Below are positions 3,657-54,935 of a DNA stretch of 64,000 nt, piece after piece (position 1 is the stretch's first letter; every line of letters begins with the position of its first letter). The DNA is from Pseudoroseicyclus aestuarii (GTDB lineage Bacteria; Pseudomonadota; Alphaproteobacteria; Rhodobacterales; Rhodobacteraceae), in contig NZ_QJTE01000003.1 of the NCBI RefSeq assembly GCF_003217255.1, forward strand, positions 1 to 64,000, read 5' to 3'. The translations under genes and the position numbers were made by a program. The notes under the pieces are model-generated. The model worked only from the letters and a program-made list of their open reading frames with translations, was not told the origin of the DNA and made no database searches.

Positions 3657-3834
3657 TCGGGCCCATTTCGCGGGCAGAGGCGCCCGGATCGCGGCAAAAA
3701 GCCGCGTGCGGCGCTTGTCCCTCCTGCCGAGCCTCGGTAAGTCCGGGGCCATACGCAACGTCACGGGCCCGCGCCACGGCGCCGCCCGCAGCAAACGGAG
3801 GCCGCAGCCCGGCGGGCCTGCGGCGACAGTTCCC

Positions 3835-5685
3835 ATGGCCGAGACGGACCAAGCCGCCGAGCAGGCGCGCATCTTCCAGCGGACCCGCGCGGTCGACACG
3901 CAGCAGGGGATCGACGCGCTCAAGCGGATCCTGCGGATGACGAAGGCGAGCCCCGGCCTCGTGACGCTGTCGGTCCTGGCCACCGTGGCCGCCGTCGCGG
4001 CGCAGCTGTCGATCCCGGTGCTTCTGGGCCGCGCCGTCGATGCCACGCAGGCCGTCGCGAACGAGACCGGCGATCAGGGCACGCTCTGGCGCATCGCCCT
4101 TGCGCTCTTTGCCGTCAGCGTTGCGCGCGGGCTCTTCACCCTCCTGCAGAACTACAGCGCCGAGGCGGTGGGGCACGGCCTTGCCCATGAGCTGCGGCTG
4201 CAGATCTACTCGAAGATCCAGCGCCTTCCCTTCAGCTTCCACGACCGGACCCATTCGGGCGACCTGATCACCGTCGGCATGCTCGACCTCGAAGGGGTGC
4301 GGATGTTCTTCTCGACCGGGGTGATCCGCACGATCCTGCTGACGCTGCTGATCGGCATCGGCGCCTGGCTTCTGCTGTCGACCGACATCGTGCTGGGGCT
4401 GCTGGCGCTCAGCTTCGTGCCCTTCGCGGCCTGGCGCAGCTCCGTCATGCAGCTGACCCTGCGCAAGACCTGGCTGATCCTGCAGGAACGGCTGGGCGTG
4501 CTCAGCCGCGTGATGGAAGAGAACCTCGGCGGCATCCGCGTCGTGCGCGCCTTTTCCGCCGCCGATCACGAGCTGACGAAGTTCGACGAGGCCTCGACCG
4601 AGGCGCTGCACCTCAGCCACCAGCGGGTGACGGTGCGGGTGCGCGATACCAGCGCGATGACCTTCGCCTTCTTCCTCGCGATGGGTCTCGTGCTCTACTT
4701 CGGCGGCCGCCAGGTCGCGGCGGGCGAGATCACGGTCGGCACGCTGGCGACCTTCCTGACCTTCATGACCATCCTGCAGATGCCGGTGCGCCAGCTGGGC
4801 CTGATGGTGAACAGCTACGCCCGCGCCTCGACCTGCGGCGCGCGTCTCTTCGCGCTGCTGGACATGCCGCTCGAGGTCGATGAGGCGCCGGATGCCCCCG
4901 ACCTCAAGGTAACGGAGGGCACCCTGACGCTGGAGGGCGTCGGCTTCGAATACCAAGGCGCCGAGGGGCACAGGGCGATCAGCGGCGTCAGCTTCACCGC
5001 GCATAAGGGCGAGACCATCGGCATCGTCGGCCCGCCGGGCAGCGGCAAGTCGACGCTGATGCACCTGATCCCGCGCTATTACGACACGACCGAGGGCAGC
5101 ATCCGCATCGACGGGCAGGACATTCGCGACGTCTCGCTGTCGTCGGTGCGGCACGCGGTGGCGGTGGTGCAGCAGGACAGCTTCCTCTTCACCACATCGA
5201 TCGAGAACAACATCGTCTACGGCGATCCAGAGGCGCATGACCGGCGCATCCGCGGCGTCGCGGAAAGCGCGCAGCTGCACGACTACGTCCTCGGCCTGCC
5301 GCAGGGCTACGACACGGTCGTGGGCGAACGCGGCGTCTCGCTTTCGGGCGGGCAGCGCCAGCGCCTGTCCATCGCGCGCACGCTGATGATGGAGCCGGCG
5401 GTGATGATCTTCGACGACAGCACCGCGGCCATCGACGCCGGCACCGAAAGCCGCATCCGCAGCGCCCTGCGCCAGTACTCGGCCGAGCGGGTGACCCTGA
5501 TCGTGGCGCACCGCCTGAACAGCCTGATGCATGCCGACCGGATCCTCTTCCTCGAGGACGGTCGCATCGTCGAAGAGGGCACCCACGATGAGCTGCTGGC
5601 CAAGGGCGGGCGCTACCGCGCGCTGCACGACCTGCAGATGCGCCCCGAGGGCGATGTCCTGGACGAGATGGAGACCGCGCGATGA
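3835..5685 (+). CDS. ABC exporter half-transporter, degenerate-site subunit (BmrC/YheI-like)
   Basis: This is a type IV ABC exporter half with an N-terminal six-helix membrane domain (about 40-330) and a C-terminal ATPase domain (about 360-600); 616 residues. Walker A is GPPGSGKST (399-407), the signature LSGGQ (503-507) is canonical, and the H-loop His is H559. Walker B ends in D527-D528, so the catalytic glutamate is replaced by Asp. That is typical of the degenerate subunit of heterodimeric exporters such as BmrC of BmrCD. Its stop overlaps the next start by 4 bases (ATGA). The start has only a weak ribosome binding site, and upstream in-frame codons exist. The substrate (drug, lipid or peptide) cannot be told from sequence. 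Confidence 0.9.
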   Translation: MAETDQAAEQARIFQRTRAVDTQQGIDALKRILRMTKASPGLVTLSVLATVAAVAAQLSIPVLLGRAVDATQAVANETGDQGTLWRIALALFAVSVARGLFTLLQNYSAEAVGHGLAHELRLQIYSKIQRLPFSFHDRTHSGDLITVGMLDLEGVRMFFSTGVIRTILLTLLIGIGAWLLLSTDIVLGLLALSFVPFAAWRSSVMQLTLRKTWLILQERLGVLSRVMEENLGGIRVVRAFSAADHELTKFDEASTEALHLSHQRVTVRVRDTSAMTFAFFLAMGLVLYFGGRQVAAGEITVGTLATFLTFMTILQMPVRQLGLMVNSYARASTCGARLFALLDMPLEVDEAPDAPDLKVTEGTLTLEGVGFEYQGAEGHRAISGVSFTAHKGETIGIVGPPGSGKSTLMHLIPRYYDTTEGSIRIDGQDIRDVSLSSVRHAVAVVQQDSFLFTTSIENNIVYGDPEAHDRRIRGVAESAQLHDYVLGLPQGYDTVVGERGVSLSGGQRQRLSIARTLMMEPAVMIFDDSTAAIDAGTESRIRSALRQYSAERVTLIVAHRLNSLMHADRILFLEDGRIVEEGTHDELLAKGGRYRALHDLQMRPEGDVLDEMETAR

Positions 5686-7668: not shown

Positions 7669-9690
7669 TCAGGCCAGCTCGGCCGGCGCCGCATCCGTTT
7701 CGAGGTTGAGCCAGGCCACCGTGCCGGGATCGAGTGTCAGCCCCACGCCCGGCAGGGTCGAGGCGATCTCGCCCGCGCTGCGCGGGCCGATCAGCGCCAG
7801 CGAGGGGAAAGGCTGGCTCAGGACCCAGGCCGTGGCGATGTTGTGGGCGCTGACGCCGCGCGCACCTGCCAGCGCCTCGGCCCTGCGGCGGCGCTCGGCA
7901 TTGGCCGCGCTGCCGAAGCAGGCTTCGGGGCGGGTATCCTCTGGCAGGCGATCCCGCAGCGCCTCGGGCAGGAAATAGCCGCGCGCCTGGCTGGACCAGC
8001 TCAGGTGCACGACCTGCCGCTCCTTGAGGAAGGCCAGTGTCCGCGCGTCGTTCGAGGTGACGCAGCCCGGCCAGACCGGCCGTTCCATCACCGCGAGGCT
8101 GAGGTTGTTGTTCAGGATGCTCGGGCCCTGCAGGCCCTTAGCCTCGGCGTAGTCCTGCGCCTCGGCCAGCCGGGCCGGGGTCCAGTTGCTGCCGCCCCAG
8201 ATGCCGACGCGGCCCTGGGCGATCAGCCCGTTCACCGCCTCGACGAATTCGCCGACCGGCACCTCCGGGTTGTCGCGGTGCAGGATGTAGATCGGCACAT
8301 GGTTCAGCTGCAGCCGGCCCATCGAGATCTCGAACTGCGCCAGCAGCGCGCGCGGCGTGCAATAGGGGGAATGGGCGCCCTTGGAGATCACGGTGATCTC
8401 CTCCGCCACGCCGCGCGAGGCGATCCATTGCCCCAGCACGGCCTCGTGCCGCCCGCCGCCGTAGACGAAGGCACTGTCGAAGGCATTGCCGCCGGCCTCC
8501 ATCCAGGCATCCCAGACCACCGCCCCTTCGGCCGGGGTGTCGCGGTTGTCGCAGCCCATGACCAGCTGGCTCATGGGCCGGTCCAGGCCCGGCAGCGTGA
8601 CCTGCGGCACCTGTGGCAGCCCGGCGGGCAGGGTACGGGGCAGGCGGCGGAGGGCGCCCGGCTCTTCGGCGAAGGTGGCATAGCCCAGCTCGGCCCGCCA
8701 TTGGTCCAGCACGGCGGCATTGCCGATCGAGCCCTTCGGCGACATCGCGGGGTAGGGCACCTCGCTTAGGCCCCCCAGAAGCGCGCGGCTGACGGCCTGC
8801 GCTTCGTGCATGAAGAGATGGGCGGGGTGTTTCACCCACTCCTCCGTCGTCTCGCCGTTCTTCACCAGCCGGATCACGGCGTCCGAGGGGCCGGCATTGC
8901 GGCCCGGCACCCAGGGGTCGGGCAGGGTCAGGCTGCCCTCCGTCCCCTCCACGGTGATCGAATTCTCCATGGTCCGGGTGACGGCGCAGGCGATCTCGGC
9001 GGTGATGCCGCCTTGGAAGGTCAGCAGGCCATGCGCGACCTCGTCGACCCCGGTGGGCCCAAGGACGCCGGCCCCCTTCACCACCAGCGGATCGGCGAAG
9101 CCGCCGGTGCCGATGCCGGCGATCAGCCGCGCGGCGGAGACGGGGTAGCCGCCGACGTCGAGGATGCCGCCCCCGGCGAGGGCGCGGCTGAAGAGCCGGC
9201 TTTCGGGATCGCGCGTCGCGGCGAAGCCGAAGCTGGCGCGGATGTGCCGGACCGTGCCGATGGCGCCACCCTCGATCATCTCGATCATCCGGGCGATCTG
9301 CGGATGCAGGAGGTACATGAACCCCTCCATCAGCAGCACGCCCTCCTGCTGGGCCGCCTCGACCAGGGCCACGGCCTCGGCGGCGTTCAGGCCCAGCGGC
9401 TTCTCGATCACCAGCGGCTTGCCGGCGCGGATCGCGAGCAGCCCCTGCTCGGCGTGGAAGGGATGGGGCGTCGCGATGTAGACGGCGTCAACCTCAGCGT
9501 CCGCGACCAGCGCCTCGTAGCTGTCGTGGCGGGTGGGTACGGCGTTGCGATTCCCGAACTCGGCCCGCCGCTCGGCGCTGCGGCTGGCGATGGCCTGCAG
9601 CGTGGCATCAGGCGCCTCGGCCACCCCGTCGGCGAAGTTCTGGGCGATGGCGCCGGGGCCGATGATGCCCCATCTGATCGGACCGGTCAT
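7669..9690 (-). CDS. Two-domain oxidoreductase: GFO/IDH/MocA domain fused to aldo-keto reductase domain
   Basis: A 673-residue protein with two NAD(P)-dependent dehydrogenase domains. Residues 1 to about 335 are a GFO/IDH/MocA domain: Rossmann motif GIIGPGAIAQNF, the EKPL motif with its catalytic Lys, and GGGILDVGGYPVSAAR, where a Tyr (not His/Asp) takes the catalytic place as in glucose-fructose oxidoreductase and NADP D-xylose dehydrogenase. From about 350 on is an aldo-keto reductase with the Asp-Tyr-Lys-His tetrad visible in FDSAFVYGGG, VISKGAH and YILHRDNP. Two redox sites in one chain suggest coupled oxidation and reduction of a sugar (epimerisation or keto-sugar chemistry); that is inference. 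It is the last gene of the sugar operon, with a 4-base overlap with the GH2 gene. Confidence 0.88.
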   Translation of the reverse strand: MTGPIRWGIIGPGAIAQNFADGVAEAPDATLQAIASRSAERRAEFGNRNAVPTRHDSYEALVADAEVDAVYIATPHPFHAEQGLLAIRAGKPLVIEKPLGLNAAEAVALVEAAQQEGVLLMEGFMYLLHPQIARMIEMIEGGAIGTVRHIRASFGFAATRDPESRLFSRALAGGGILDVGGYPVSAARLIAGIGTGGFADPLVVKGAGVLGPTGVDEVAHGLLTFQGGITAEIACAVTRTMENSITVEGTEGSLTLPDPWVPGRNAGPSDAVIRLVKNGETTEEWVKHPAHLFMHEAQAVSRALLGGLSEVPYPAMSPKGSIGNAAVLDQWRAELGYATFAEEPGALRRLPRTLPAGLPQVPQVTLPGLDRPMSQLVMGCDNRDTPAEGAVVWDAWMEAGGNAFDSAFVYGGGRHEAVLGQWIASRGVAEEITVISKGAHSPYCTPRALLAQFEISMGRLQLNHVPIYILHRDNPEVPVGEFVEAVNGLIAQGRVGIWGGSNWTPARLAEAQDYAEAKGLQGPSILNNNLSLAVMERPVWPGCVTSNDARTLAFLKERQVVHLSWSSQARGYFLPEALRDRLPEDTRPEACFGSAANAERRRRAEALAGARGVSAHNIATAWVLSQPFPSLALIGPRSAGEIASTLPGVGLTLDPGTVAWLNLETDAAPAELA

Positions 9691-42832: not shown

Positions 42833-43333
42833 TCAGGCGGCCTTGTTGAGGCCGTTCTCGGCGAGGTCGGTCAGCTTCTGATCCGCGGCCTTCTCTTCGG
42901 CCAGGGTCTGCTGGAGGAGGGCGGCGACCTCGGGATGGTTCAGCTCGCGACTCCAGGCGATCAGGCTGCCGTAGCGGGTGATCTCGTAGTGCTCTACGCC
43001 CTGGGCGGCGAAGGCGAGAGCGGCGTCGAGGACCTTGGGATCGCCGATATCGCCCGCGACCTCGTTCGCTTCCTTGATGATGCCGTCGATCGCGGGGCAG
43101 GTTGCGCCCTTCGCTTTCTGGCCCAGCAGCTCGAAGGCCTGCTCGAGCCGGCTGACATGGGTCTTCGATTCCTCGAGGTGGCTTTCGAAGGCCGTCTTAA
43201 GCGCCGGGCTGGTGGTCTTGCCGATCATCTTCGGCAGCGCTTTCACGATCTGCTGCTCGGCGTAGTAGATGTCCTGCAGCGCGTGGGTATAGAGGTCGTC
43301 CATCGTCTGGATGTCTTTGGTGAAGAGGGCCAT
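42833..43333 (-). CDS. Ferritin-like DUF892 family stress protein (YciF-like)
   Basis: A 166-residue four-helix protein of the DUF892/YciF group. Family motifs: MDDLYTHALQDIYYAEQQIVKALP at the start (two halves of helix 1), LKTAFESHLEESKTHV, GVEHYEITRYG and the closing AEEKAADQKLTDLAE. Glu/His pairs on these helices fit a di-metal ferritin-like centre. Relatives are induced by starvation, salt and general stress. The upstream region has a near-perfect EcfG promoter, in agreement. The AAGGAG ribosome binding site is well placed. It precedes the glycan operon in the same orientation only in position; 179 bases and a promoter separate them. Confidence 0.9.
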   Translation of the reverse strand: MALFTKDIQTMDDLYTHALQDIYYAEQQIVKALPKMIGKTTSPALKTAFESHLEESKTHVSRLEQAFELLGQKAKGATCPAIDGIIKEANEVAGDIGDPKVLDAALAFAAQGVEHYEITRYGSLIAWSRELNHPEVAALLQQTLAEEKAADQKLTDLAENGLNKAA

Positions 43334-43425: not shown

Positions 43426-43451
43426 AACGAGTGTCGGCCCGGCGCTGTTCC
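43426..43451 (-). promoter_or_regulatory. EcfG-type general-stress promoter for the DUF892 gene
   Basis: On the minus strand GGAAC (43451-43447) and CGTT (43429-43426) are separated by 17 bases, the known alphaproteobacterial EcfG consensus (GGAAC, 16-17 bases, CGTT). The expected start of transcription is about 85 bases upstream of the DUF892 start codon. Confidence 0.65.
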
Positions 43452-43512: not shown

Positions 43513-44262
43513 TTAGCGCGCGATGCGGGGCGGCGGCGACACGGCCTCGCCGCGGGGGCCGCGGCGGCAGAGGTAGACCTCGCGCTCTGGATGCGCCTCG
43601 ATCACGAAGCCGGCGCTGCGCAGCATCGCGTCCATGGCCGCGCGGTTCGGCACGAACCAGTTCGTCGGATCCTTGGAGTAGCGCTTTTCGATGAAATGCA
43701 GCCGGGGCCAGGCGGCATCGTCGAAGATCGCCTGATCGTCGAAGTCGTAATCGGCCCGCGTCTCGTAATCCTCGGCCGAGCCGCGCTGCATCGACTGGAA
43801 CAGCAGATGCTCGCCCACGACATGCTCGTGCAGCAGGTCGAGCGCCAGAAGCGGGTGGCGCAGGTGGTAGAGCACCCCCATGAAGATCACGAGATCGAAG
43901 CGCTCGCCCAGTTCGGCGACATGGTAGACGTCGAGCTCGCGGAACTCGATCTCGAGCCCCTCGGTCTGGGCGGCGAAACGCGCCTGCGCGAGGTAATGCG
44001 GGTCGCTGTCGATGCCGACCACGCGGGCGGCGCCGCGGCGCGCCATCTCCATCGCGTAGAAGCCGGCGTTGCAGCCGATGTCGAGGACCGTCTTGCCGGA
44101 CAGATCCGCAGGCACGACGTGGGCGAAGCCCTCCCACTTGAACTGCGGGTAGTCGCCGAGGAAGTGCTCCGGCGCGGTCTGCTGCCCGCCGATGCGCAGG
44201 TTGTGAAACCAGGGGCCCAGATCCGCGATGCGGCGGGCAAGGGTGTCGTTATCCGAAGTCAT
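43513..44262 (-). CDS. SAM-dependent methyltransferase (CmoB-like, glycan cassette)
   Basis: Class I methyltransferase of 249 residues. The SAM site is TVLDIGCNAGFYAMEMARRG (two parts) with the acidic residue in VVGIDSDPHY, then the post-motif FMGVLYHLRHP. The N-terminal GPWFHNLRIGG and PQFKWEGF resemble CmoB-like enzymes; I recall a family of such methyltransferases (named after Rta_06860) tied to glycosyltransferase cassettes, from memory only. As the last gene of the glycan operon, overlapping the UXS-like gene by 4 bases, it probably methylates the glycan or its precursor, not tRNA. Confidence 0.85.
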   Translation of the reverse strand: MTSDNDTLARRIADLGPWFHNLRIGGQQTAPEHFLGDYPQFKWEGFAHVVPADLSGKTVLDIGCNAGFYAMEMARRGAARVVGIDSDPHYLAQARFAAQTEGLEIEFRELDVYHVAELGERFDLVIFMGVLYHLRHPLLALDLLHEHVVGEHLLFQSMQRGSAEDYETRADYDFDDQAIFDDAAWPRLHFIEKRYSKDPTNWFVPNRAAMDAMLRSAGFVIEAHPEREVYLCRRGPRGEAVSPPPRIAR

Positions 44263-45248
44263 ATCCGTCCTTTCGCCGCCTCGGCGGGCTCGATGCCGAG
44301 ATGCCGGGCGAACCAGTCCGCGGTCGCCTTGAGGCCTTGGGCCAGCGGCACCTCGGGCGACCAGCCCAGCAGCGCCTGCGCCCGGGCGATGTCGGGGCGC
44401 CGCATCTTGGGATCGTCCTGCGGCAGGGGCAGCGTCTGGTGCGGCAGGGCGCCGGGGATCAGGGCCTGCACCTGCTCGGCCAGCTCGAGGATCGTGAACT
44501 CGAAGGGATTGCCGAGGTTCACCGGCCCCTCGGGGCGCGGATCCACGGCCATCAGCGCCATCAGCCCCGCCACCATGTCGGTGACGTAGCAGAAGCTGCG
44601 GGTCTGCGTGCCGCTGCCATAGATCGTCAGCGGACGCCCCGTCAGCGCCTGGACGATCAGGTTCGACACGATGCGCCCGTCCTCGGGGTCCATCTGCGGG
44701 CCATAGGTGTTGAAGATGCGCGCGACGCGGACATCGGTGCCCATGCGGGCATGATCCCAGCACAGGGCCTCGGCGGCGCGCTTGCCCTCGTCGTAGCAGG
44801 CGCGGGGGCCGGTGCAGTTGACGTGGCCCCAGTAGTCCTCGGGCTGTGGGTGCTGCTCGGGGTCGCCGTAGACCTCGCTGGTCGAGGCCTGCAGGTAACG
44901 CGCGCCCTGCGCGCGGGCCAGCGCCAGCAGGTTCCGGGTGCCGATCACATTGGTCATCATCGTATGCACCGGATCGGCCTGGTAGCGCGGCGGGCTGGCG
45001 GGGCTCGCGAGGTTGTAGATCTCGTCGAGCCGCCCGAGGTCGGGAAGAGGCTCTGTCACCTCGGCCTGCACCACCGAGAAGCCGCGGTTGTTGAGCAGGG
45101 GCTGCACCGTCTCGCGCCGTCCGGTCAGGAAGCTGTCGAGGCAGATCACCCGCGCCCCGCCGGCCAGAAGCGCCTCGCAGAGGTGGCTGCCGATGAAGCC
45201 GGCGCCGCCCGCGACGAGCACGGTCCGCAGGGGGAGGGTGGGGGTCAT
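44259..45248 (-). CDS. NAD-dependent sugar epimerase/decarboxylase (UDP-glucuronate decarboxylase-like)
   Basis: Extended SDR of 329 residues acting on nucleotide sugars. NAD site GGAGFIGSHLCEALL (about 14-28), catalytic STSEVYGDP and YDEGKRAAE (Tyr-x3-Lys), and RIFNTYGPQMDPEDGRIVSN are those of UDP-xylose synthase (UXS), which turns UDP-glucuronate into UDP-xylose. GPRACYDEGKR is particularly UXS-like. Xylose supply for the cassette's glycosyltransferases is therefore plausible but unproven. Both ends overlap neighbours by 4 bases. Confidence 0.87.
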   Translation of the reverse strand: MTPTLPLRTVLVAGGAGFIGSHLCEALLAGGARVICLDSFLTGRRETVQPLLNNRGFSVVQAEVTEPLPDLGRLDEIYNLASPASPPRYQADPVHTMMTNVIGTRNLLALARAQGARYLQASTSEVYGDPEQHPQPEDYWGHVNCTGPRACYDEGKRAAEALCWDHARMGTDVRVARIFNTYGPQMDPEDGRIVSNLIVQALTGRPLTIYGSGTQTRSFCYVTDMVAGLMALMAVDPRPEGPVNLGNPFEFTILELAEQVQALIPGALPHQTLPLPQDDPKMRRPDIARAQALLGWSPEVPLAQGLKATADWFARHLGIEPAEAAKGRI

Positions 45249-46351
45249 GAGCCTGTTCCTTGCAGCCGGTGCGCCGGCGCTTCGGCGAGATCGGCGATCA
45301 GCTGCCGCGCGCGGGCGCGGCCCGTATGAGCCGCCTGCACGCGGGCGCGGGCGGCATCGGCCTGCCGCTGCCGCTGCGGGGGCGTCATCGTGGTCAGGGC
45401 GGTGACGACATCCTCGGTGCTGTCCGCCACGAGGATGGCCTCGCCCTCGGGCAGCACCTCGCCCAGCCCCTCCCAGCGGTCCGAGACGATGGGCGTGCCG
45501 CAGGCCGCGGCCTCGAACAGGCGGACGGAGGGCGACCAGCCGAGCGCCTTCATCGCGGAGCGGGTGACGTTGAGCGTGAAGCGCTGGGCGCCGTAGAAGG
45601 CCGCGTGCTCGCTGGGCGGCAGGTGGTCGATCCGCTCGACATTCTCGGGCCAGTCGATGTCATCGGGGTACTGCGGCCCGGCGACGACGAAGCGCATCTG
45701 CGGCAGGCGTCGCGCAGGCTCGATCAGCAGCTGCTCCAGCGGCGGCTGGCGGTCGGGCGAATAGGTGCCGAGGTAACCGAGGTCCCATGTCGCGGGCAGG
45801 TCCATCGGCGCATAGCGCGCCTCGTCCACGGCGCAGTAAAGCGGGCGCGGATCGCGGGCGCCGAAGTCGCGCCGCAGCACATCCAGCACGCGCCCGCCGG
45901 AAAAGGAGAAATAGGTGTCGAAGAAGGGCACCTGCCGCCGCGCGAGGTGATCCTCGCGCCCCGCGCGCAGATGCTCGAGCGTGACGGGCGTGTCGATGTC
46001 GTAAAAGCAGAAGGGCTGGGCGATGCGGCCCGCCTGCGCCGCCTCGTGCAGCCGGTCGATCAGCGCCTGCCCCTCGGGGACGTAGCTGCCGACGATCACC
46101 GCCGCCGCGTCGCGAAGCCTCTCGCCGTAGGTCCCGAAGACCTCGTCGAGGCTGTGGTACAGCCGCAGCTCGCAGAAGTCGGGATCGGGCAGGTCGCGCT
46201 GGCTGGCATACCAGGGCACGTCGCGTTCCAGGAACAGCACCCGCTGCCCCTCTGCCGCCAGCCCGCGGATCAGCGCGCGGAAAGTCGTGGCATGGCCGTT
46301 TCCCCAGGAGGAGGAGAGCGAGAGGCCGAGGATGACGATCTCGCCGCTCAT
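45245..46351 (-). CDS. CgeB-like glycosyltransferase, copy 1
   Basis: GT-B-type glycosyltransferase of 368 residues in the CgeB group (CgeB acts on the Bacillus spore crust). The N-terminal domain starts IVILGLSLSSSWGNGHATTFRALIRGL in two parts; the C-terminal donor domain has LNVTRSAMKALGWSPSVR and FEAAACGTPIVSDRWEGL. No signal or membrane segment, so cytoplasmic. It is one of three similar tandem genes. Both junctions are ATGA overlaps. Donor and acceptor unknown. Confidence 0.87.
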   Translation of the reverse strand: MSGEIVILGLSLSSSWGNGHATTFRALIRGLAAEGQRVLFLERDVPWYASQRDLPDPDFCELRLYHSLDEVFGTYGERLRDAAAVIVGSYVPEGQALIDRLHEAAQAGRIAQPFCFYDIDTPVTLEHLRAGREDHLARRQVPFFDTYFSFSGGRVLDVLRRDFGARDPRPLYCAVDEARYAPMDLPATWDLGYLGTYSPDRQPPLEQLLIEPARRLPQMRFVVAGPQYPDDIDWPENVERIDHLPPSEHAAFYGAQRFTLNVTRSAMKALGWSPSVRLFEAAACGTPIVSDRWEGLGEVLPEGEAILVADSTEDVVTALTTMTPPQRQRQADAARARVQAAHTGRARARQLIADLAEAPAHRLQGTGS

Positions 46352-47427
46352 GCCGTTTCCTTCGCCATATGCGCGCGGAAGAGGGCATCTACCTGCTCGG
46401 CCCGCTTGTCGTAGGTATGCCCGGCGAGAATGCGCTTGCGGGCGGCCTGGCCGATGGCCTCGGCCTGCTCGGGCCGAATTTCGCGCAGAAGCTGCGCCAC
46501 CTCGGCGCCGCTGCGGGCGACCAGCACTTCCTCCCCCGGCTCGAGGAACTGCTCGATCCCCTCCCAGTAGTCGGTGATCAGGCAGGCGCCGGCGCCCGCC
46601 GCCTCGAAGACGCGGGTGGCGGGGGAAAAGCCGGTCGCCGCCATGCTGTCGCGGGCGATGTTCAGCACCATGCGCGGGCTGCGGTTGAAGGCGTTGTGGT
46701 CGCGCGTGCCGACATGGCCCAGGCGGGTGACGTTCCTGGGCACGTGATCCCAGCCCGAGCCGCCGATCAAAAAGCGCATGTCAGGCAGCATCCGGGCGGG
46801 GCCGAAGAAGAACTCCTCCACCCGCGCCTCGCGGTCTGGCAAGCGATTGCCGAGGAACCCCAGATCCCCGGCGAAGCGGGCTTCGGCGGGGACGGGGTGA
46901 TGCGTGTCGGGATCACAGGCGTTGTAGATCGGAACGCAGGTCCGCGCGCCGAGGGCGGTATAGGCCTGCACCACAGGATCGCCGCCGCCGTAGGTCAGCA
47001 CCATGTCGAGATCGGGCAAGGCGGCGCGCAGGGGGCTGTCGGGATCGGCCTGCATCTCGGCCAGCGTGGCGGGGGCATCGACGTCCCAGAACAGGCGCAG
47101 CGCACCGGGGCGCGCGGCCTTCATCACCTCGTCGAGGATCATGTCGTCCTCGTAGCCGACGCCGCTGGCCTTGACGACGATGTCGGCCTTTCCGGCCTCT
47201 GCCGCGACACAGCGCAGGGCGTCATGCGTGCCCTCCCAGACCACGACGCGGGCCCAGTCGGGCACCTCCATGTCGCGGTTGGCGCCGCGGTCGTGCACGT
47301 CGGGCTCGTAGAAGGTGATGTCGTAGCCATGCCCGGCGAGCGCGCGCAGCATGCCCCGGTAATAGGTCGCCGCGCCGTTCCAGTAGGAGGACAGCAGGCT
47401 CGATCCGTAAAAGGCGATACTGGTCAT
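46348..47427 (-). CDS. CgeB-like glycosyltransferase, copy 2
   Basis: A 359-residue relative of its two neighbours. It begins MTSIAFYGSSLLSSYWNGAA and has the donor-domain series LGFLGNRLPDRE, VLNIARDSMAATGFSPATR and FEAAGAGACLITDYWEGIEQF, the closest of the three to classical CgeB. The ATG at 47427 overlaps the upstream stop; a longer frame exists upstream but lies inside copy 3 in another frame. Cytoplasmic; probably adds one sugar to the cassette product. Confidence 0.88.
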   Translation of the reverse strand: MTSIAFYGSSLLSSYWNGAATYYRGMLRALAGHGYDITFYEPDVHDRGANRDMEVPDWARVVVWEGTHDALRCVAAEAGKADIVVKASGVGYEDDMILDEVMKAARPGALRLFWDVDAPATLAEMQADPDSPLRAALPDLDMVLTYGGGDPVVQAYTALGARTCVPIYNACDPDTHHPVPAEARFAGDLGFLGNRLPDREARVEEFFFGPARMLPDMRFLIGGSGWDHVPRNVTRLGHVGTRDHNAFNRSPRMVLNIARDSMAATGFSPATRVFEAAGAGACLITDYWEGIEQFLEPGEEVLVARSGAEVAQLLREIRPEQAEAIGQAARKRILAGHTYDKRAEQVDALFRAHMAKETA

Positions 47428-48533
47428 TCGGCGGCCTCTCTCGTCTCGCCGCGCAGGGCGGCGCTGATTGCCAGAAGCTCGTCGACCCGGTGCCGGCAGG
47501 TGTGCCGCGCCAGGATCGTCTCGCGGCCATGGGCGATCAGGCTGCCGCGCAGCCCCTCGTCCGACAGCACATCGCGCAGGCGCTGCTCCATCTCGGCCCC
47601 GTCGCGGGCAAAGAGGAAATCCACGCCGGGCCGGAACAGCCCCTCGGCATCGTCCCAGGGGGCGGAGACCAGCGGGATGCCGCAGGCCAGCGCCTCGAAG
47701 GGGCGGATGGTGGGGATGCCGGGCAGCGCCTCGACGTAGGGCCGGCGCGGGACATGCACCGTCACCCGGTGCCGGGCGAAGGCGGCGGGCGCGTCCGTAT
47801 TGGCGATGGAGCCGCGGTAGGCGATGCCCGCGCGGGCGAGGCGATCCAGGGCGTGATCGGGGTAGCGCACGCCGTGGATCTCGGCCGTCAGGCCAAGGTG
47901 CTGCACCGGCTCCACGAGGAACTGCATCAGCTCCTCGCTGCGCTCGCCGTCGCCCCAGTTGCCGATCCAGACCAGATCGCCGGTCGTCGCGACATCGGGC
48001 AGGGGGTGGAACACCGTCTCGTCCGCGGCCTCGTGCCAGGTAAAGACCTGACCCGCCCAGCCGGCGTCGAGGTAGCGTTCGCGCAGCGCCTCGCCGAAGG
48101 CCAGAACACCGTCGTAGCCCGACAGATCGAAACCGGCGATCTCGTCGCTGGCGCTGACGGCGCGGTGATGGGTGTCGTGGAACAGCAGCTGGAAGGGCGC
48201 GCCCCGCGCCCGCGCCCGGCCAAGGCGCGCGACGAGGGCGGGGTCGGTCCATTCGTGAACCACCACGAGATCCGCATCGTCGAGCGCCGCCTCGTGGTCG
48301 AAATCCTCGGGGTAAATCTGCCAGCGCAGCTCGGGATAGACGGCGGCGAAGGCGTCGATCGCCTGCGGGCCGCGATCCGCGATCAGGTTCTCACGGCTCC
48401 AGCTTTGCGCGGGCTCCAGCGCCAGCACCTCGTGCCCGCGCCGCACCAGATCGCGCATCACGCCGCGCAGGAAATGCGCGTTGCCGTGGTTCCAGTCTGA
48501 GACCAGCGAATGGGTGTAGAAGACGATTATCAT
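47424..48533 (-). CDS. CgeB-like glycosyltransferase, copy 3
   Basis: A 369-residue GT-B glycosyltransferase, third of the tandem set. N-terminal MIIVFYTHSLVSDWNHGNAH, middle DLVWIGNWGDGERSEEL and C-terminal RPFEALACGIPLVSAPWDDAEGLF align in order with the two downstream copies. Divergence between copies is high, so the duplications are old or the genes were gathered from different lines. ATGA overlaps on both sides. Confidence 0.86.
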   Translation of the reverse strand: MIIVFYTHSLVSDWNHGNAHFLRGVMRDLVRRGHEVLALEPAQSWSRENLIADRGPQAIDAFAAVYPELRWQIYPEDFDHEAALDDADLVVVHEWTDPALVARLGRARARGAPFQLLFHDTHHRAVSASDEIAGFDLSGYDGVLAFGEALRERYLDAGWAGQVFTWHEAADETVFHPLPDVATTGDLVWIGNWGDGERSEELMQFLVEPVQHLGLTAEIHGVRYPDHALDRLARAGIAYRGSIANTDAPAAFARHRVTVHVPRRPYVEALPGIPTIRPFEALACGIPLVSAPWDDAEGLFRPGVDFLFARDGAEMEQRLRDVLSDEGLRGSLIAHGRETILARHTCRHRVDELLAISAALRGETREAAE

Positions 48534-49612
48534 GCCGCGGCCTGTCCCGCCCTGACCCCGAGGGTCCGGTACAGATCGAGCACCGCCGCCACCTGCGCCT
48601 GCAACGAATAGCGTCGCGCCCGCTCGCGCGCGGCGCGGCCAAGGGCGGCGCGGCGCGGGGCATCGGCGGCCAGCGCGTTGATCGCCCCGCGCAGGGCCGG
48701 GGGATCGACGGGATCGAAGAAGGCGGCGGCGCCGTCCCAAAGTTCCCGGTAGGTCGGGATGTCCGCCAGCAGGAGCGGCCGCTGCGCCCGCGCCGCCTCG
48801 AGCGCGGCAAGACCGAAGGGCTCGTAGAGCGAGGGAGAGACGAAAAGGCCCGCCTGCCGCAGCAGCCCCATCGCCTGCCCGTGTTCCAGCGGGCCGGGGG
48901 CACCGGCGTAATGGATCGCGGCATGGCTGCCGTCGGGGCCTTCCGTTGCGCCCGCCATGGTCACCGGCCAGAGGCTGTCCTCGGCGGCGGCATCGAGGAC
49001 GGCGGCATTCTTGCCCGCATCCCACCAGCGCGCGGCGGCAAAGACGTAATCCTCGCCCGTTCCGCCGCCCTCAGGCGCAAGGCTGGCGTTATGCACGACG
49101 GCTATGCGCGGCAGGCCCTCGTACACCGCGCCCATCGCCTTTGCATGGGCGGCAGAGGGGACGAGTGCGGCATCGGCGGCGCGCAGCCCGGCGCCCGTCA
49201 ACTCGGCCTGCCAGGCCATGTCATCCGGCACGGCGCTGCCGCGCACGGCGGCGAACCATGTGGCGAGGCAGGAGTGCGAGGCGGCGACGACCGGCATCGC
49301 GACCTCCAGCTCCGCGCCCTGGCTGGGGTAGTTCAGATGCACGAGATCCGCGCCGCGACGCTCCGCCAGCGCCGAAAGCCAGGGCCCGACGGGCGCCAGC
49401 GCCTCGGGGCCCTTGGCCAGCCAGTCCAGCGGCGCCTCGCCCCAGTCGAGCGTGCCGATCCGCCGCGCCGCCTCGGCCTGCGCGGGCGACGGCGCGGGGC
49501 CGAGACCGGCGAAGGCGATCTCCAGCCCCTCGGCCCGCAGGCCCTGCGCAAGGTCCAGCGCGTAGCGCCAGACGCCGCCCACGGCGTCGAGGGTCATCAG
49601 TACCCGTGTCAT
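48530..49612 (-). CDS. GT4-family glycosyltransferase
   Basis: A GT-B glycosyltransferase of 360 residues with the GT4 pattern. The start MTRVLMTLDAVGGVWRYALDLA carries the Gly-rich acceptor-side loop; later are VPSAAHAKAM, RIAVVHNA and the donor-site EPFGLAALEAARAQRP (E-x7-E type). It resembles a sucrose-synthase/GT4 type glycosyltransferase more than CgeB. Cytoplasmic, coupled by overlaps to the GH-epimerase fusion upstream and CgeB-like copy 3 downstream. Confidence 0.87.
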   Translation of the reverse strand: MTRVLMTLDAVGGVWRYALDLAQGLRAEGLEIAFAGLGPAPSPAQAEAARRIGTLDWGEAPLDWLAKGPEALAPVGPWLSALAERRGADLVHLNYPSQGAELEVAMPVVAASHSCLATWFAAVRGSAVPDDMAWQAELTGAGLRAADAALVPSAAHAKAMGAVYEGLPRIAVVHNASLAPEGGGTGEDYVFAAARWWDAGKNAAVLDAAAEDSLWPVTMAGATEGPDGSHAAIHYAGAPGPLEHGQAMGLLRQAGLFVSPSLYEPFGLAALEAARAQRPLLLADIPTYRELWDGAAAFFDPVDPPALRGAINALAADAPRRAALGRAARERARRYSLQAQVAAVLDLYRTLGVRAGQAAA

Positions 49613-51603
49613 GCCGAAAGCCTTGCGCCGTGGGCCTGCGGGACCCGGTGCTCCGCCAGCCATGCCGCCAGCCGGTGCAGCCCGTCCTTCCAGCCGACCT
49701 GCGGCTGCCAGCCGGTCTCGGCCTGCAGAAGGCGGGTATCGGCGACAAACCAAGGCTGATCGCCCTGCCGCCAGGTGTCGTAGCGCACGTCCACCTCGCG
49801 GTACGTGACGCGCCCGATCTCTTTCAGGACGCCGCGCAGGCTGACGGCATTGGCCGGGCCGCCGCCAAGGTTGAAGGCGCGGCCCTTCAGCCGGTCGATG
49901 TCGCCCAGCACCGCGCGATAGGCGGCGACGGCGTCCGAAACCTCGAGCACGTCGCGCACCTGATGGCCGCTGCCGTAGAGGGTGATCGCCTCGCCCTTCA
50001 GCGCGCGGATCAGGAAATGCGCGACCCAGCCCTGATCCTCGGTCCCGAACTGGCGGGGGCCGTAGATGCAGGACATGCGCAGCACCGCCGTCGGCAGGCC
50101 GTAGCTTTTCGCGTAATCCAGCACGTATTGATCCGCGACACCCTTGGAGCATCCGTAGGGCGTGGCGAAATCCAGCGGGCGGCTTTCGTCGACGCCATGC
50201 GCGGCCAATGCATTGTCATGCGGGGCGCAGCCCTCGGCGGTGTCCTCGACCGTCAGGTCGGCGAGGCTGCCATAGACCTTGTTCGTGCTGGCGAAGATCA
50301 GCGGCACCTGCCGCCCAGTGGCGCGCAGCGCCTCGAGCAGGTTGAGCGTGCCGCGGGCGTTGACCTCGAAATCCTCTAGGGGCGCGGTCAGGCTGGTGGT
50401 CACGGCGGTCTGCGCGGCAAGATGCACCACCGCCTCGGCATCGGCGACAGCGGCCGAGAGTGTCGAGGCGTCCCGCATGTCCACGGGCGCGGGATGGACG
50501 CGGCTGCCATGCCGCTCGATCAGCCATTCGAGGTTTTCTTCCACGCCCGAGCGCGAGAGGTTGTCGATGATCACGACCTCGCGCCCCTCGGCAAGAAAGC
50601 TCTCGGCAAGGTTGGAGCCGATGAAGCCCGCGCCGCCGGTGATCGCGACGGGCTTGGTCGCGTCGCCGATCCGGGGCGCGGCAAGACCCGTGACCTCGCG
50701 CACCCGCTCGGGCCCGCCGTCCGCCAGAAGCCGGGCCAGCAGCTTGGGCTGGCCCTCCGCCGTCGTGGCGCCAAGGTGATAGTGCCGGAGGTCAAAGAGC
50801 GGGCCTTCCTGCACGGCGGTGTCCTGCGTCAGGTCCTGCCAGCCGTACCAGTACATCCGCTCCGCCGACGCATCGAGCGCCTGGGCAAAGCGTCGCGCCT
50901 GCTCGATCCCGTCGTGGCGCCAGGTGGAATAGCCGGTCTCGGTGATCCAGATCTCGGCCTTCGGCGCGTGGCGATCCAGGATCTCGCGCATCTCGGCCAG
51001 ATGGGCGTCCCAGCCCTTCCAGCTGCCTTCTTCGCTGTCCCATGTGCCGGGAAAGCCGTGAAACCCCACGGCATGCATAAGTTGAAGCAGCCCGCGCTCG
51101 CCCATCAGGTTCAGCCAGTAGGCGTCGAAGGGCGCGGGGCCGCCCAGCACCGGGCGCCAGCCGCGCTGGTCTGCCCAATGCGCAGCATTGGTGATCATCT
51201 CGCAGAACAGCTCGAAGCCGGTGTCCTCGCGCCAGTCCCAGTCCAGCAGGTTGTTGGGTTCGTTCCAAAGCTCGACGAATTTGAAATGTTCGCCGTGCCG
51301 GGTCAGCACGAGATCGATAAAATCGGCGTAGTCCTTGAGGACCTTCGGCGCGCCGGAGGTCCGGCCCGTCCGCGATAGCGAGGGCGGCGTGTAGTGCACG
51401 CAAGGTAGGACCTCGAAATGCTCGGCCAGCTTCGGAAACAGCCAGTCGTTCCACTCCGGACCGCCGGGGGCGAGGTATTCGGCCCAGCTCAGGTGCGTGC
51501 GGACCCATGCGGCGCCGCTGGCCTTGAGCTTCGGGATTTCGCGCTTGACCCGCTCGTATTCGCCGGGGCGGAACCATTCGACGAAGCCGAAGGGGGTGGT
51601 CAC
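49609..51603 (-). CDS. Fusion of clan GH-A glycosidase and CDP-paratose-2-epimerase-like SDR
   Basis: A 664-residue two-domain protein. Residues 1 to about 300 form a TIM barrel of the GH5/GH39 kind: acid/base E115 in FVELWNEPNN and nucleophile E222 in WITETGYS, both intact. No signal peptide, which is unusual for this clan. From about 317 an extended SDR begins (TGGAGFIGSN at 322-331) with ASTNKVYGS, TPYGCSKG (Tyr-x3-Lys) and MSCIYGPRQFGTEDQGWVAH, the pattern of CDP-tyvelose/paratose 2-epimerase. Both halves are full length and in one frame, so this is a real fusion. It may trim or rearrange a glycoside while epimerising the sugar nucleotide; the reaction is unknown. Confidence 0.87.
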   Translation of the reverse strand: MTTPFGFVEWFRPGEYERVKREIPKLKASGAAWVRTHLSWAEYLAPGGPEWNDWLFPKLAEHFEVLPCVHYTPPSLSRTGRTSGAPKVLKDYADFIDLVLTRHGEHFKFVELWNEPNNLLDWDWREDTGFELFCEMITNAAHWADQRGWRPVLGGPAPFDAYWLNLMGERGLLQLMHAVGFHGFPGTWDSEEGSWKGWDAHLAEMREILDRHAPKAEIWITETGYSTWRHDGIEQARRFAQALDASAERMYWYGWQDLTQDTAVQEGPLFDLRHYHLGATTAEGQPKLLARLLADGGPERVREVTGLAAPRIGDATKPVAITGGAGFIGSNLAESFLAEGREVVIIDNLSRSGVEENLEWLIERHGSRVHPAPVDMRDASTLSAAVADAEAVVHLAAQTAVTTSLTAPLEDFEVNARGTLNLLEALRATGRQVPLIFASTNKVYGSLADLTVEDTAEGCAPHDNALAAHGVDESRPLDFATPYGCSKGVADQYVLDYAKSYGLPTAVLRMSCIYGPRQFGTEDQGWVAHFLIRALKGEAITLYGSGHQVRDVLEVSDAVAAYRAVLGDIDRLKGRAFNLGGGPANAVSLRGVLKEIGRVTYREVDVRYDTWRQGDQPWFVADTRLLQAETGWQPQVGWKDGLHRLAAWLAEHRVPQAHGARLSA

Positions 51604-52706
51604 GATACCAGTCCCCGTGCCTCTAGCTGGCGGCGCATCTCGTCGCCCTTGTCGGTATGGGCCTGCCCCGCGACCCAGGCGACGAAGGGGCCGAGCGAGT
51701 CCTCCAGCCGGTGCTGCGGGGCGTAGCCCAGCAGATCGCGCGCGCGGCTGATATCGGGGAAGTTGTTGCGGATGTCGCCGGTCCGCGCCTTGTTCAGGAT
51801 CTCGGGCGTCAGGTCCGGGCGGCCCATGGCTTCGGTCAGCAGCGTCGCGACCTGCGTGACGGTATAGACGTGGCCCGAGCCGATGTTGATGACCGATCCG
51901 GCAGCGCGATCCGACTCCATCGCAAGGCGGAAGGCGGCGGCGACGTCGCGCACATGGACGAAGTCCCGCTTCTGCTCACCGTCCTCGAAGATCGTCGGCC
52001 GCTGGTCGTTCGCGATGCGCGAGGCGAAGTTCGCCAGAACCCCGGTATAGGGGTTCGAAAGGGCTTGCCCCGCGCCGTAGACGTTCCACAACCGCAGCGC
52101 GACGGCGGGGATGTCATAGGCCTCGCCGAAGATCAGGACGGCCTGCTCCTGCTGGTACTTGGTCAACGCGTAGATCGAGGCGAGGTCGACGCGCTTGTCC
52201 TCGGTCGTCGCGATGGGCTCCAGCGGGGTGCCCTGCGCATCCTTGGGTTGCCAGTCGGCGGCGCGGATCGCGGCGGGACTGCGGCGCACCTTTTCCCGCA
52301 AGCTGCCGTCGGCGGCGCGGTACAGCCCCTCGCCATAGACGCTCATGGAGCTGGCGACGACGATGCGCTTCACGGGGTGCTGCGCGATCGCCTCCAGAAG
52401 GACGGCGGTGCCCAGATCGTTGGTGCCGACGTAGCGGGCGATCTCGTACATCGATTGCCCGACCCCGACCTCGGCGGCCAGATGGACGACGCCGTCGCAG
52501 CCCTCAAGGGCCTCTGCCACGGCATCCTTGTCGCAGATGTCGCCGCGCACCAGCACCGCCCCCTCGGGCAGAGCAGGCTCATGGCCGCCGTGGACCTGGT
52601 CGATGAGACTGTCGAGAATGCGAACGTTGTGTCCAGCGGCCAAAAGCTCTTCCGCCACGTAGCGGCCAATGAAGCCCGCGCCGCCTGTGATGAGTGTCGT
52701 CGGCAT
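51600..52706 (-). CDS. NAD-dependent sugar epimerase (dTDP-L-rhamnose 4-epimerase-like)
   Basis: Extended SDR of 368 residues, first gene of the glycan operon. The NAD site is ITGGAGFIGRYVAEELL; catalytic residues are in SSMSVYGEGLYR and YALTKYQQEQ, and the segment LSNPYTGVLANFASRI with FEDGEQKRDFVHVRDV is typical of dTDP-L-rhamnose 4-epimerases (WbiB-like). It may make a deoxy- or 4-epimeric sugar donor. The ATG at 52706 is preferred (GGAAGA upstream); an earlier ATG at 52736 has none. It overlaps the fusion gene by 4 bases. Confidence 0.87.
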   Translation of the reverse strand: MPTTLITGGAGFIGRYVAEELLAAGHNVRILDSLIDQVHGGHEPALPEGAVLVRGDICDKDAVAEALEGCDGVVHLAAEVGVGQSMYEIARYVGTNDLGTAVLLEAIAQHPVKRIVVASSMSVYGEGLYRAADGSLREKVRRSPAAIRAADWQPKDAQGTPLEPIATTEDKRVDLASIYALTKYQQEQAVLIFGEAYDIPAVALRLWNVYGAGQALSNPYTGVLANFASRIANDQRPTIFEDGEQKRDFVHVRDVAAAFRLAMESDRAAGSVINIGSGHVYTVTQVATLLTEAMGRPDLTPEILNKARTGDIRNNFPDISRARDLLGYAPQHRLEDSLGPFVAWVAGQAHTDKGDEMRRQLEARGLVS

Positions 52707-52746
52707 GAACGCCGTCTTCCAATCTGTCAGGATCATCCACAGGTCG

Positions 52747-52772
52747 AACAGGTTGAAGTTGCAATAGGTTCC
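52747..52772 (-). promoter_or_regulatory. Possible EcfG-like promoter of the glycan operon
   Basis: On the minus strand GGAAC (52772-52768) is followed after 17 bases by TGTT (52750-52747), one mismatch from the EcfG consensus CGTT. It lies about 40 bases upstream of the first gene of the eight-gene operon. Candidate only. Confidence 0.35.
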
Positions 52773-52938: not shown

Positions 52939-53952
52939 ATGCCCGGACCCGATGCGACTGCGCCCCAAGGCGCCATGACCGCCGTGGAGGTCACCGCGCC
53001 CGGAGCGGTGCGGCTGATCGAGGCTGATCTGCCGCGGCCCGGCCCCGGCCAGATGCGCGTGCGCCTTGAGGGCTGCGGCGTCTGCGCCTCGAACCTCGGG
53101 CCATGGTCGGGGCCCGAATGGCAGCAGTTCCCGCTGGAGCCGGGCGCGCTGGGCCATGAGGGCTGGGGTATCGTCGAGGCGCTGGGCGAGGGGGCAGAGG
53201 GTTTCCCCGTCGGCAGCCGCGTCGCCTTTCAGGGCATGCATAGCTTCGCCAGTCACGACATCGCCGATCCGGCGCTGACGGTGGCCCTGCCCGAGGCACT
53301 GGCCGGGCAGCCGGTGCCGGCAGAGCCGCTGGGCTGCGCGATGAACATCTTCCGCCGGGCGCAGGTGCGGCCGGGCCAGACCGTCGTGATCATCGGCATC
53401 GGCTTTCTCGGCGCGCTGCTGACGCAGCTTTGCGCGCAGGCCGGGGCGCGGGTGATCGCCATATCGCGCCGCGAGGAAAGCCTTGCCCTCGCCCGCCGGA
53501 TGGGCGCCGCCGAGACCGTGCCGATGCACGACCACTGGGAGATCATCGAGGCGCTGCGCGGCCTGACGGATGGCCGCTTTGCCGATGTGGTGATCGAGGC
53601 GGTGGGCAAGCAGTGGCCGCTCGATCTCGCGGCAGAGCTGACGGCGGAAGGCGGGCGGCTGGTGATCGCCGGCTACCACCAGGACGGCCCGCGGCAGGTG
53701 AACATGCAGCTGTGGAACTGGCGCGGCTTCGACGCGGTCAACGCGCATGAGCGCGACCCGGCGGTGGTGCGGCAGGGCATGGAGGATGCCGTGACGGCCT
53801 GGGCCGAGGGGCGGATCGACCCCGCGCCGCTCTTCACCCACGATTTCGCGCCCGAGCAGCTGGACGCGGCGCTCGATGCCACCCGCGACAAGCCCGAGGG
53901 CTTCGTCAAGGCGCTGATCCGCTTTGGCGGCGTTGAAGGAGAGGCCCGATGA
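52939..53952 (+). CDS. MDR-superfamily dehydrogenase (zinc-alcohol-dehydrogenase-like)
   Basis: Medium-chain dehydrogenase of 337 residues. The catalytic-zinc region shows GCGVCASNLGPW and GHEGWGIV; the four-Cys structural zinc loop is missing. The nucleotide site is VVIIGIGFLGALL. It probably oxidises a sugar or polyol. It diverges from the glycan operon and its stop overlaps the next GFO/IDH/MocA gene by 4 bases. MDR plus GFO pairs, sometimes fused, occur in other polysaccharide loci. AAGGAAG precedes the ATG; an inner ATG at 52975 is possible. Confidence 0.85.
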   Translation: MPGPDATAPQGAMTAVEVTAPGAVRLIEADLPRPGPGQMRVRLEGCGVCASNLGPWSGPEWQQFPLEPGALGHEGWGIVEALGEGAEGFPVGSRVAFQGMHSFASHDIADPALTVALPEALAGQPVPAEPLGCAMNIFRRAQVRPGQTVVIIGIGFLGALLTQLCAQAGARVIAISRREESLALARRMGAAETVPMHDHWEIIEALRGLTDGRFADVVIEAVGKQWPLDLAAELTAEGGRLVIAGYHQDGPRQVNMQLWNWRGFDAVNAHERDPAVVRQGMEDAVTAWAEGRIDPAPLFTHDFAPEQLDAALDATRDKPEGFVKALIRFGGVEGEAR

Positions 53953-54935
53953 CCCGCCCGCGCATCGGTTTCCTCGGGCTCGGCTGGATCGGCCGGCACC
54001 GGATGCAGGCCATCGCCGAGAGCGGCCATGCCGAGATCGTCGCCCTTGCCGACCCCTCGCCCGAGGCGGTGGAGACGGCGGCGGAGCTTGCGCCCGATGC
54101 CGCGCGGGGCGCGACGATGGAGGATGTGCTTGCCGCCCGCCCCGATGGCGTGGTGATCGCCACCCCCTCGGCCCTGCACGTGCCGCAGGTGCTTCAGGCG
54201 CTGGAGGCGGGGGCGGCGGTCTTCTGCCAGAAGCCGCTGGGCCGCAATGCCGCCGAGGCGGCGCAGGCGGTCGAGGCCGCGCGCCGGGCGGACCTCCTGC
54301 TGGCGGCTGACCTGTCCTACCGCCACACCGCCGCCTTTGGCGCACTCATGGCGCAGGTGGAGGAGGGCGCGCTGGGCGATGTCTTCGCCGCCGACTTCAC
54401 CTTCCACAACGCCTATGGCCCGGACAAGCCGTGGTTCTACGACAAGGCGCAGTCGGGCGGCGGCTGCCTGATCGATCTGGGCGTTCACCTCGTCGATCAG
54501 GCGCTCTGGCTGCTGGGCGCGGACGACCTGACCTGCACCTCGGCAAGCCTGTTCTCCGGCGGCGGACCTGTCGGGCCCGATGGCGTCGAGGATTACTGCG
54601 TCGCCAGCCTGCGCGCGCCGTCCGGCACGGCGATCCGCATCGCCTGCTCCTGGACGTTGCCCGCCGGGCGCGAGGCGGTGATCGAGGCGCAACTTTACGG
54701 CACGAAGGCCGGCGCCGAGGTGCGCAACGAGGCGGGGTCCTTCTACAACTTCTCCGCCTCGCGGTTCGAGGGGACGGCGGCACGCCCGCTCGTCTCGCCG
54801 CCCGACGACTGGGGCGGTCGCGCGGCGGTGGACTGGGCGCGGCGGCTGGCCGAAGGCGAGGGTTTCGACCCCGACACCGAGCGGCTGACGGTGCTGGCGC
54901 GGGTGATCGACGGGATTTACGCCGCCGCGCACTGA
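53949..54935 (+). CDS. GFO/IDH/MocA-family oxidoreductase
   Basis: Sugar dehydrogenase of 328 residues. Rossmann motif GFLGLGWIGRHRM, the catalytic-Lys motif as CQKPLGRN (Gln in place of the usual Glu before Lys), and GGGCLIDLGVHLVDQALWLLG with the His/Asp pair of the inositol-dehydrogenase type. It is coupled to the MDR gene and probably acts on the same sugar in sequence. Together with the glycan operon it may form or recycle a keto-sugar. Substrate unknown. Confidence 0.87.
   Translation: MTRPRIGFLGLGWIGRHRMQAIAESGHAEIVALADPSPEAVETAAELAPDAARGATMEDVLAARPDGVVIATPSALHVPQVLQALEAGAAVFCQKPLGRNAAEAAQAVEAARRADLLLAADLSYRHTAAFGALMAQVEEGALGDVFAADFTFHNAYGPDKPWFYDKAQSGGGCLIDLGVHLVDQALWLLGADDLTCTSASLFSGGGPVGPDGVEDYCVASLRAPSGTAIRIACSWTLPAGREAVIEAQLYGTKAGAEVRNEAGSFYNFSASRFEGTAARPLVSPPDDWGGRAAVDWARRLAEGEGFDPDTERLTVLARVIDGIYAAAH

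Follow-up and report, generated by a model that had tools for sequence, protein, structure and literature searches.

The 64,000-nucleotide stretch of Pseudoroseicyclus aestuarii DNA analyzed here (contig NZ_QJTE01000003.1, positions 1 to 64,000; hereafter the window) contains a cassette of genes for sugar modification and transfer, which is predicted to make a soluble methylated glycoside as part of the general stress response. Eight genes, designated A-H, are located on the minus strand from 52706 down to 43513, and two more, I and J, diverge from A. Genes recognized from their translations as accD- and ilvD-type housekeeping genes are located beside the cassette. It comprises the following features:

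51600-52706, minus strand: gene A, nucleoside diphosphate (NDP)-sugar epimerase/dehydratase of the short-chain dehydrogenase/reductase (SDR) type (PF01370, 4.5e-53), the first gene of the conserved core block
49609-51603, minus strand: gene B, GTG start, glycosidase domain (residues 1-305, 50689-51603) fused to an SDR (residues ~317-650)
48530-49612, minus strand: gene C, GT4 glycosyltransferase (PF13439/PF00534)
47424-48533, minus strand: gene D, CgeB-like glycosyltransferase (PF13524, 2.7e-37)
46348-47427, minus strand: gene E, CgeB-like glycosyltransferase (PF13524, 6.5e-42)
45245-46351, minus strand: gene F, CgeB-like glycosyltransferase (PF13524, 1.7e-40)
44259-45248, minus strand: gene G, predicted UDP-glucuronate decarboxylase (UDP-xylose synthase; UXS1 homology, YDEGK motif)
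43513-44262, minus strand: gene H, methyltransferase TIGR04290 (383.7 bits, cut-off 300)
52975-53952, plus strand: gene I, Zn-dependent alcohol dehydrogenase (PF00107/PF08240), diverging from A
53949-54935, plus strand: gene J, Gfo/Idh/MocA oxidoreductase (PF01408/PF22725), with an ATGA overlap with I
52747-52772, minus strand: EcfG-type promoter motif GGAAC-N18-GTT, 66 bases before A, its position conserved in related loci

The eight minus-strand open reading frames, with the extents and families given in the initial annotation, were confirmed by open reading frame and domain checks, the latter using family and structure profiles. Gene A has an alternative in-frame ATG further upstream, with which it would begin at 52736. 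The match of H to TIGR04290 spans model positions 2-226 of 226 and is above the curated cut-off. The product of G aligns over residues 8-318 with human UXS1 structures (E 7e-109; solved UDP-xylose synthase structures, E ~1e-109), and its translation carries the active-site YxxxK motif as YDEGK; full-length homology together with this motif assigns it to a predicted UDP-glucuronate decarboxylase group. The closest solved relative of the SDR half of B, covering the full domain, is CDP-tyvelose 2-epimerase 1orr (E 1.6e-75, residues 319-650), to which it is 40% identical in a fold search with whole B that was filled by the SDR half; by homology it belongs to the CDP-tyvelose 2-epimerase group.

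All seven junctions between A and H are overlaps of exactly 4 bases. They had been described as identical ATGA junctions; the length is correct, but only six read ATGA, with GTGA at the A/B junction (51600). Related loci likewise allow a 4-base overlap at E/F (47/51), A/b (21/23), B/C (17/18) and D/E (36/49), and less often at C/D (30/50), F/G (12/31) and G/H (5/14). This conservation rules out a chance origin, and the overlaps point to translational coupling of a conserved operon rather than to anything peculiar to the window genome. Overlaps of this kind are commonplace in tight bacterial operons and reveal little about function.

Homologous cassettes are encoded in Proteobacteria, Acidobacteria, Myxococcota, Gemmatimonadota, Planctomycetes and Actinobacteria. 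With H as a probe, 72 loci were obtained in named genomes, of which one matched weakly and had no cassette. In the mapped loci of Rhizobiales, Rhodobacterales, Sphingomonadales, Rhodanobacteraceae, Acidobacteria, Myxococcota, Gemmatimonadota, Phycisphaerales and actinobacteria, the order A-B-(I-J or R)-C-D-E-F is largely kept, with G and H attached, where R is a B12-binding radical-SAM protein described below. The co-occurrence of these families across genomes, which the initial annotation had proposed to search for, is thus found in many phyla. The presence of H is nevertheless patchy (10/299 genomes of a phylum-wide set and 16/385 of a class-wide set), and the gene is absent from all 14 other genomes of the window's own family listed in the phylum-wide set. 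Horizontal spread is likely, given that many cassette copies are located on plasmids; B is matched at E 1e-40 by 154 plasmid records, although in most of these the match is confined to the SDR half. One record labeled as a plasmid of Xanthomonas sacchari R1 (L123) has the housekeeping genes msbA, lpxK, kdsB, uvrC and pgsA beside the cassette and may therefore be a piece of the chromosome or a chromid.

The limits of the cassette were drawn too narrowly when it was first described as eight genes. The divergent pair I-J had been missed; it belongs to the cassette, as evidenced by its location inside the operon in several non-alphaproteobacterial loci, and J adjoins I in most loci bearing I. The best NCBIfam models for both proteins are inositol/inosose dehydrogenases, with scores far below cut-off. 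A second Gfo/Idh/MocA-like stretch, 32% identical to J, is located at ~8800-9690 in the window, distant from the cassette. In Bradyrhizobium and many other bacteria the place of I-J is occupied by R, a member of TIGR04295 (715 bits), whose next-best scores are against BchE and HpnR; the window has no TIGR04295 member, and I and J are found instead. Whole-genome searches of 53 genomes bearing H revealed R only in 31, I only in 20, both in none and neither in two, these two being G422, which is 83% complete, and the genome from which L109 derives, a 2.7-Mb metagenome-assembled genome. The chance of zero overlap at fixed margins is ~1e-12 per genome and ~1e-10 per genus, ignoring relatedness. On a quick tree of D-E-F the I/R state changes at least five times, and the two types mostly follow clades.

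Many cassettes also contain an inositol-phosphate synthase (Ino1) and a histidine phosphatase along with GH-x, a standalone glycosidase, and some additionally a nucleotidyltransferase and a phosphopentomutase. Because PF07994 missed the Corynebacterium control, TIGR03450 was added to the search for Ino1, which was found in 14 of the 24 cassette genomes tested, usually within a few kb of H. Cassette Ino1 scores 514 bits against the mycothiol model, below the cut-off of 638. The phosphopentomutase (DeoB) gene is located inside the Bradyrhizobium version of the cassette (L067, 11682-12887), which suggests that pentose-1-phosphate is fed into the pathway in that version.

The glycosidase is present in two forms, the domain fused to B (GH-b) and the standalone GH-x, which are circular permutants of each other. 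Comparison of GH-x from L053, L055, L067 and L103 with the window domain (50689-51603) aligned GH-b 110-298 with GH-x 5-195 (profile E ~1e-36) and GH-b 2-104 with GH-x 194-294 (~1e-20), GH-x beginning at strand 4. AlphaFold models of the two forms (mean pLDDT, the predicted local distance difference test, 79.6 and 84.4) contain eight barrel strands in an order consistent with permutation. Most cassettes carry one form or the other, almost never both. The one clear locus with both is L077, in which GH-b (3727-4641) has lost the putative nucleophile Glu, SATGYS replacing TETGYS. By profile, GH-b resembles the GH39-type glycosidase PslG (E 0.003); the Pfam GH39 model gives no Pfam match for window GH-b, and one of 11 relatives reaches E 0.052. 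Glu115 of GH-b is invariant and Glu222 nearly so, and roles as acid/base and nucleophile may be assigned to them by analogy. GH-b is accordingly classified, from its sequence, as a putative distant GH39-like barrel below Pfam recognition. A fold search with permuted GH-x returned generic TIM barrels only and no specific family, an outcome that need not surprise with aligners that depend on order.

The published EcfG motif is GGAAC-N17-20-GTT (PMC6599016). Three occurrences in the 64-kb window, against 2.5 expected by chance, prove nothing on their own about EcfG control. The related loci are more informative. Among 39 non-Bradyrhizobium alphaproteobacterial loci, 23 have GGAAC-N17-18-GTT in the 250 bases preceding A, mostly between -57 and -80, compared with 143 of 7210 random 262-base windows (2%) of the same loci. 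In the Bradyrhizobium version the first gene is ino1, and in 49 of 59 alphaproteobacterial loci the motif is located before this gene; it is directed toward I in 10 of 16. A simple binomial estimate of the enrichment, uncorrected for relatedness, is ~2e-29 for the A set and ~7e-14 for the I set. A bare genome-wide count proves nothing, since with the shorter spacing N16-17 before GTT the forward pattern was not enriched over the reversed control. In the window genome, the genes for NepR, a PhyR and an EcfG-type sigma factor are adjacent to one another. Genome G619 has its cassette divided between two operons ~440 kb apart (L147 and L148), each with an EcfG-type motif, and plasmid copies of the cassette are located among DUF892, DUF1003, DUF4142 and DUF2934 genes and extra sigma factors. 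The conserved motif, the presence of PhyR, NepR and EcfG and the stress-gene neighbors together predict that EcfG drives the operon in alphaproteobacteria. The main text of the Rhizobium etli EcfG paper contains none of the gene or plasmid terms looked for in it. Two neighboring features of the window are located outside the pathway:

42833-43333, minus strand: gene K, DUF892 (YciE/YciF-like) ferritin-like protein (PF05974, 8.5e-59), a stress-associated neighbor directly downstream of the operon
43426-43451, minus strand: EcfG-type motif with a perfect CGTT before the DUF892 gene

DUF892 genes are also found near other cassette copies (L119 and L146).

The initial annotation had noted the absence of an exporter and of signal peptides, and both observations hold. 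A simple hydropathy count in 43 neighborhoods yielded 39 open reading frames with at least four hydrophobic segments, the largest family of which, an APC-type permease, is present in three loci; no membrane exporter, flippase, polymerase or initiating transferase recurs near the cassette in these neighborhoods. No wzx, wzy, wzm or wzt gene is annotated in five plasmid records, whose gene tables are incomplete, the housekeeping msbA being the only related entry. Nor is a signal peptide apparent by inspection, without a predictor, on any cassette protein. Across many phyla the cassette is therefore not tied to wzx/wzy or wzm/wzt genes, and a capsule or O-antigen origin is disfavored by the lack of a linked flippase, polymerase or ABC exporter.

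The product of the cassette is best explained as a xylose-containing methylated glycoside, cyclitol-based in many lineages, that would serve as a general-stress protectant. In the proposed pathway, G would make UDP-xylose, and A and the SDR half of B would make further NDP-sugars. Four soluble transferases, the GT4 enzyme C followed by the CgeB-like D, E and F, could build a short chain on a small acceptor, and H could then methylate the chain product, a carboxy-SAM (CmoB-like) reaction of H being an alternative that was considered. The GH39-like cytoplasmic glycosidase, fused in the window to epimerase B, may trim or recycle the product. I and J would act by oxidation and reduction on a ring hydroxyl, either in the acceptor or in a sugar; in other lineages the B12-radical-SAM enzyme appears to carry out this step. 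The acceptor itself is, in many lineages, probably myo-inositol or a different cyclitol, supplied by the inositol-phosphate synthase and phosphatase of the cluster.

On balance, we consider it probable, if by no means assured, that the cassette makes a soluble cytoplasmic methylated oligosaccharide or glycoside within the EcfG-controlled general stress response and that it has spread horizontally. The proposal of a cytoplasmic protectant in the initial annotation is well supported by the lack of apparent signal peptides and of a recurrent exporter and by the conserved EcfG motif; the product class, acceptor, order of steps, EcfG control and protective role are all deduced from the gene content and its conservation. 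Several observations weigh against this interpretation. The window's own genome has no Ino1 in PF07994 and TIGR03450 searches, so that this species would have to import a cyclitol acceptor or use another in its place. Of the 39 non-Bradyrhizobium loci, 16 lack the strict motif before A, although A does not come first in some of these 16; the window also lacks it before I. Cassettes outside the alphaproteobacteria cannot use EcfG, and an exporter could still be encoded at a site unlinked to the cassette.

It is also conceivable, although unlikely, that the cassette builds or decorates a surface glycan or glycolipid, such as an exopolysaccharide, a capsule or a lipopolysaccharide substituent, with flippase and polymerase encoded elsewhere. 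NDP-sugar enzymes together with several transferases are the usual make-up of such loci, a polysaccharide pyruvyl transferase is located near the cassette copy on pSymB of Sinorhizobium meliloti, and exopolysaccharide genes can belong to general-stress regulons (PMC6599016). This is opposed by the 43 loci, in which no membrane exporter, polymerase or initiating transferase recurs, and by a glycosidase that has no apparent signal peptide and forms a fusion with an epimerase of cytoplasmic type. Glycosylation of a protein or a larger secondary metabolite, instead of a free small glycoside, appears quite improbable: the cassette has no recurrent candidate for an acceptor protein or a scaffold enzyme, and the inositol-phosphate synthase that many copies contain suggests a small acceptor. 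The CgeB-like transferases, which here lack a known acceptor, give this idea some ground, since CgeB was named from a Bacillus spore-maturation locus.

The exclusion of I-J by R can be interpreted in two ways. The two modules may carry out different chemistry and yield two product chemotypes, for example C-methylated versus oxidized or epimerized, with no shared step. C-methylases are numerous among B12-binding radical-SAM enzymes, BchE and HpnR are the next-best matches of the TIGR04295 protein, and both types mostly track clades with at least five changes on the tree; we regard this as a serious possibility, somewhat short of probable. Against it, the two types do not differ in the remainder of the cassette, and the state has switched repeatedly without any genome holding both (31 versus 20), as would fit the replacement of one step. 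Aminoglycoside pathways related to that of butirosin use a Zn-dehydrogenase for cyclitol oxidation. BtrN, the radical-SAM enzyme of butirosin biosynthesis, oxidizes a cyclitol by two electrons (PMC9012708). By this precedent, replacement of a single oxidation step by R is plausible, though not proven, which argues against separate chemotypes, even if BtrN is not a B12 enzyme. Extending the protectant interpretation in this direction, the cassettes might, as a tentative generalization, encode a phylum-spanning family of cyclitol-based, xylosylated and methylated oligosaccharide stress protectants, in which one oxidation or epimerization is performed either by a B12-radical-SAM enzyme or by a Zn-dehydrogenase with a Gfo/Idh/MocA partner, and the glycosidase is present in two permuted forms.

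If the protectant interpretation is true, a master stress regulator directs the synthesis of an unknown stress compound in a large set of soil and plant-associated bacteria, many Bradyrhizobium, Rhizobium and Sinorhizobium among them, and this compound could explain some of the survival defects seen in general-stress mutants. Because the radical-SAM enzyme and the two dehydrogenases exclude each other, enzyme replacement can be tested directly by genetics, and the two permuted glycosidases amount to a natural experiment on how proteins evolve. Neither the regulation nor the alternative modules nor the permuted glycosidase appears to have been described, judged from the main texts of the open literature. 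No described product of, or paper on, TIGR04290 or TIGR04295 genes was found in the open literature, most subscription literature lying outside the search, and locus tags of S. meliloti (a guessed range) and R. etli led to no paper on these genes either. The earlier statement that no product is known thus stands with respect to the product; the system is not wholly new, because TIGR04290 and TIGR04295 have already been modeled.

These two NCBIfam entries are the closest formal descriptions of the system. TIGR04290 (meth_Rta_06860), of which H is a member, and TIGR04295 (B12_rSAM_oligo), which includes R of other cassettes and has no member in the window, are both single-protein models without function. 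Capsule and O-antigen loci of the Wzx/Wzy or ABC-exporter type have NDP-sugar enzymes, several glycosyltransferases and a methyltransferase in common with the cassette, whereas their flippase, polymerase, ABC exporter and initiating transferase do not recur there. Mycothiol-type inositol-glycoside pathways are comparable in that many cassettes have a related Ino1 beside a GT4 enzyme and sugar enzymes, but the thiol/cysteine ligase step was not found in the cassette and the window genome lacks Ino1. GH39 glycosidases, such as PslG and beta-xylosidases, match GH-b weakly, and its Glu pair may, by position, correspond to their acid/base and nucleophile; they differ in that GH-b falls below Pfam recognition and, with no apparent signal peptide, forms a fusion with an SDR, while GH-x, its counterpart, is permuted. 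BtrN is a twitch-domain enzyme and not a B12 enzyme like R, yet it provides a precedent for cyclitol dehydrogenation by a radical-SAM protein. Cassette copies outside the alphaproteobacteria lack control of the PhyR-NepR-EcfG type, and EcfG dependence is predicted here from the motif; in alphaproteobacteria the likeness to this regulon extends to the published motif at a conserved position and to the regulators encoded in the window genome.

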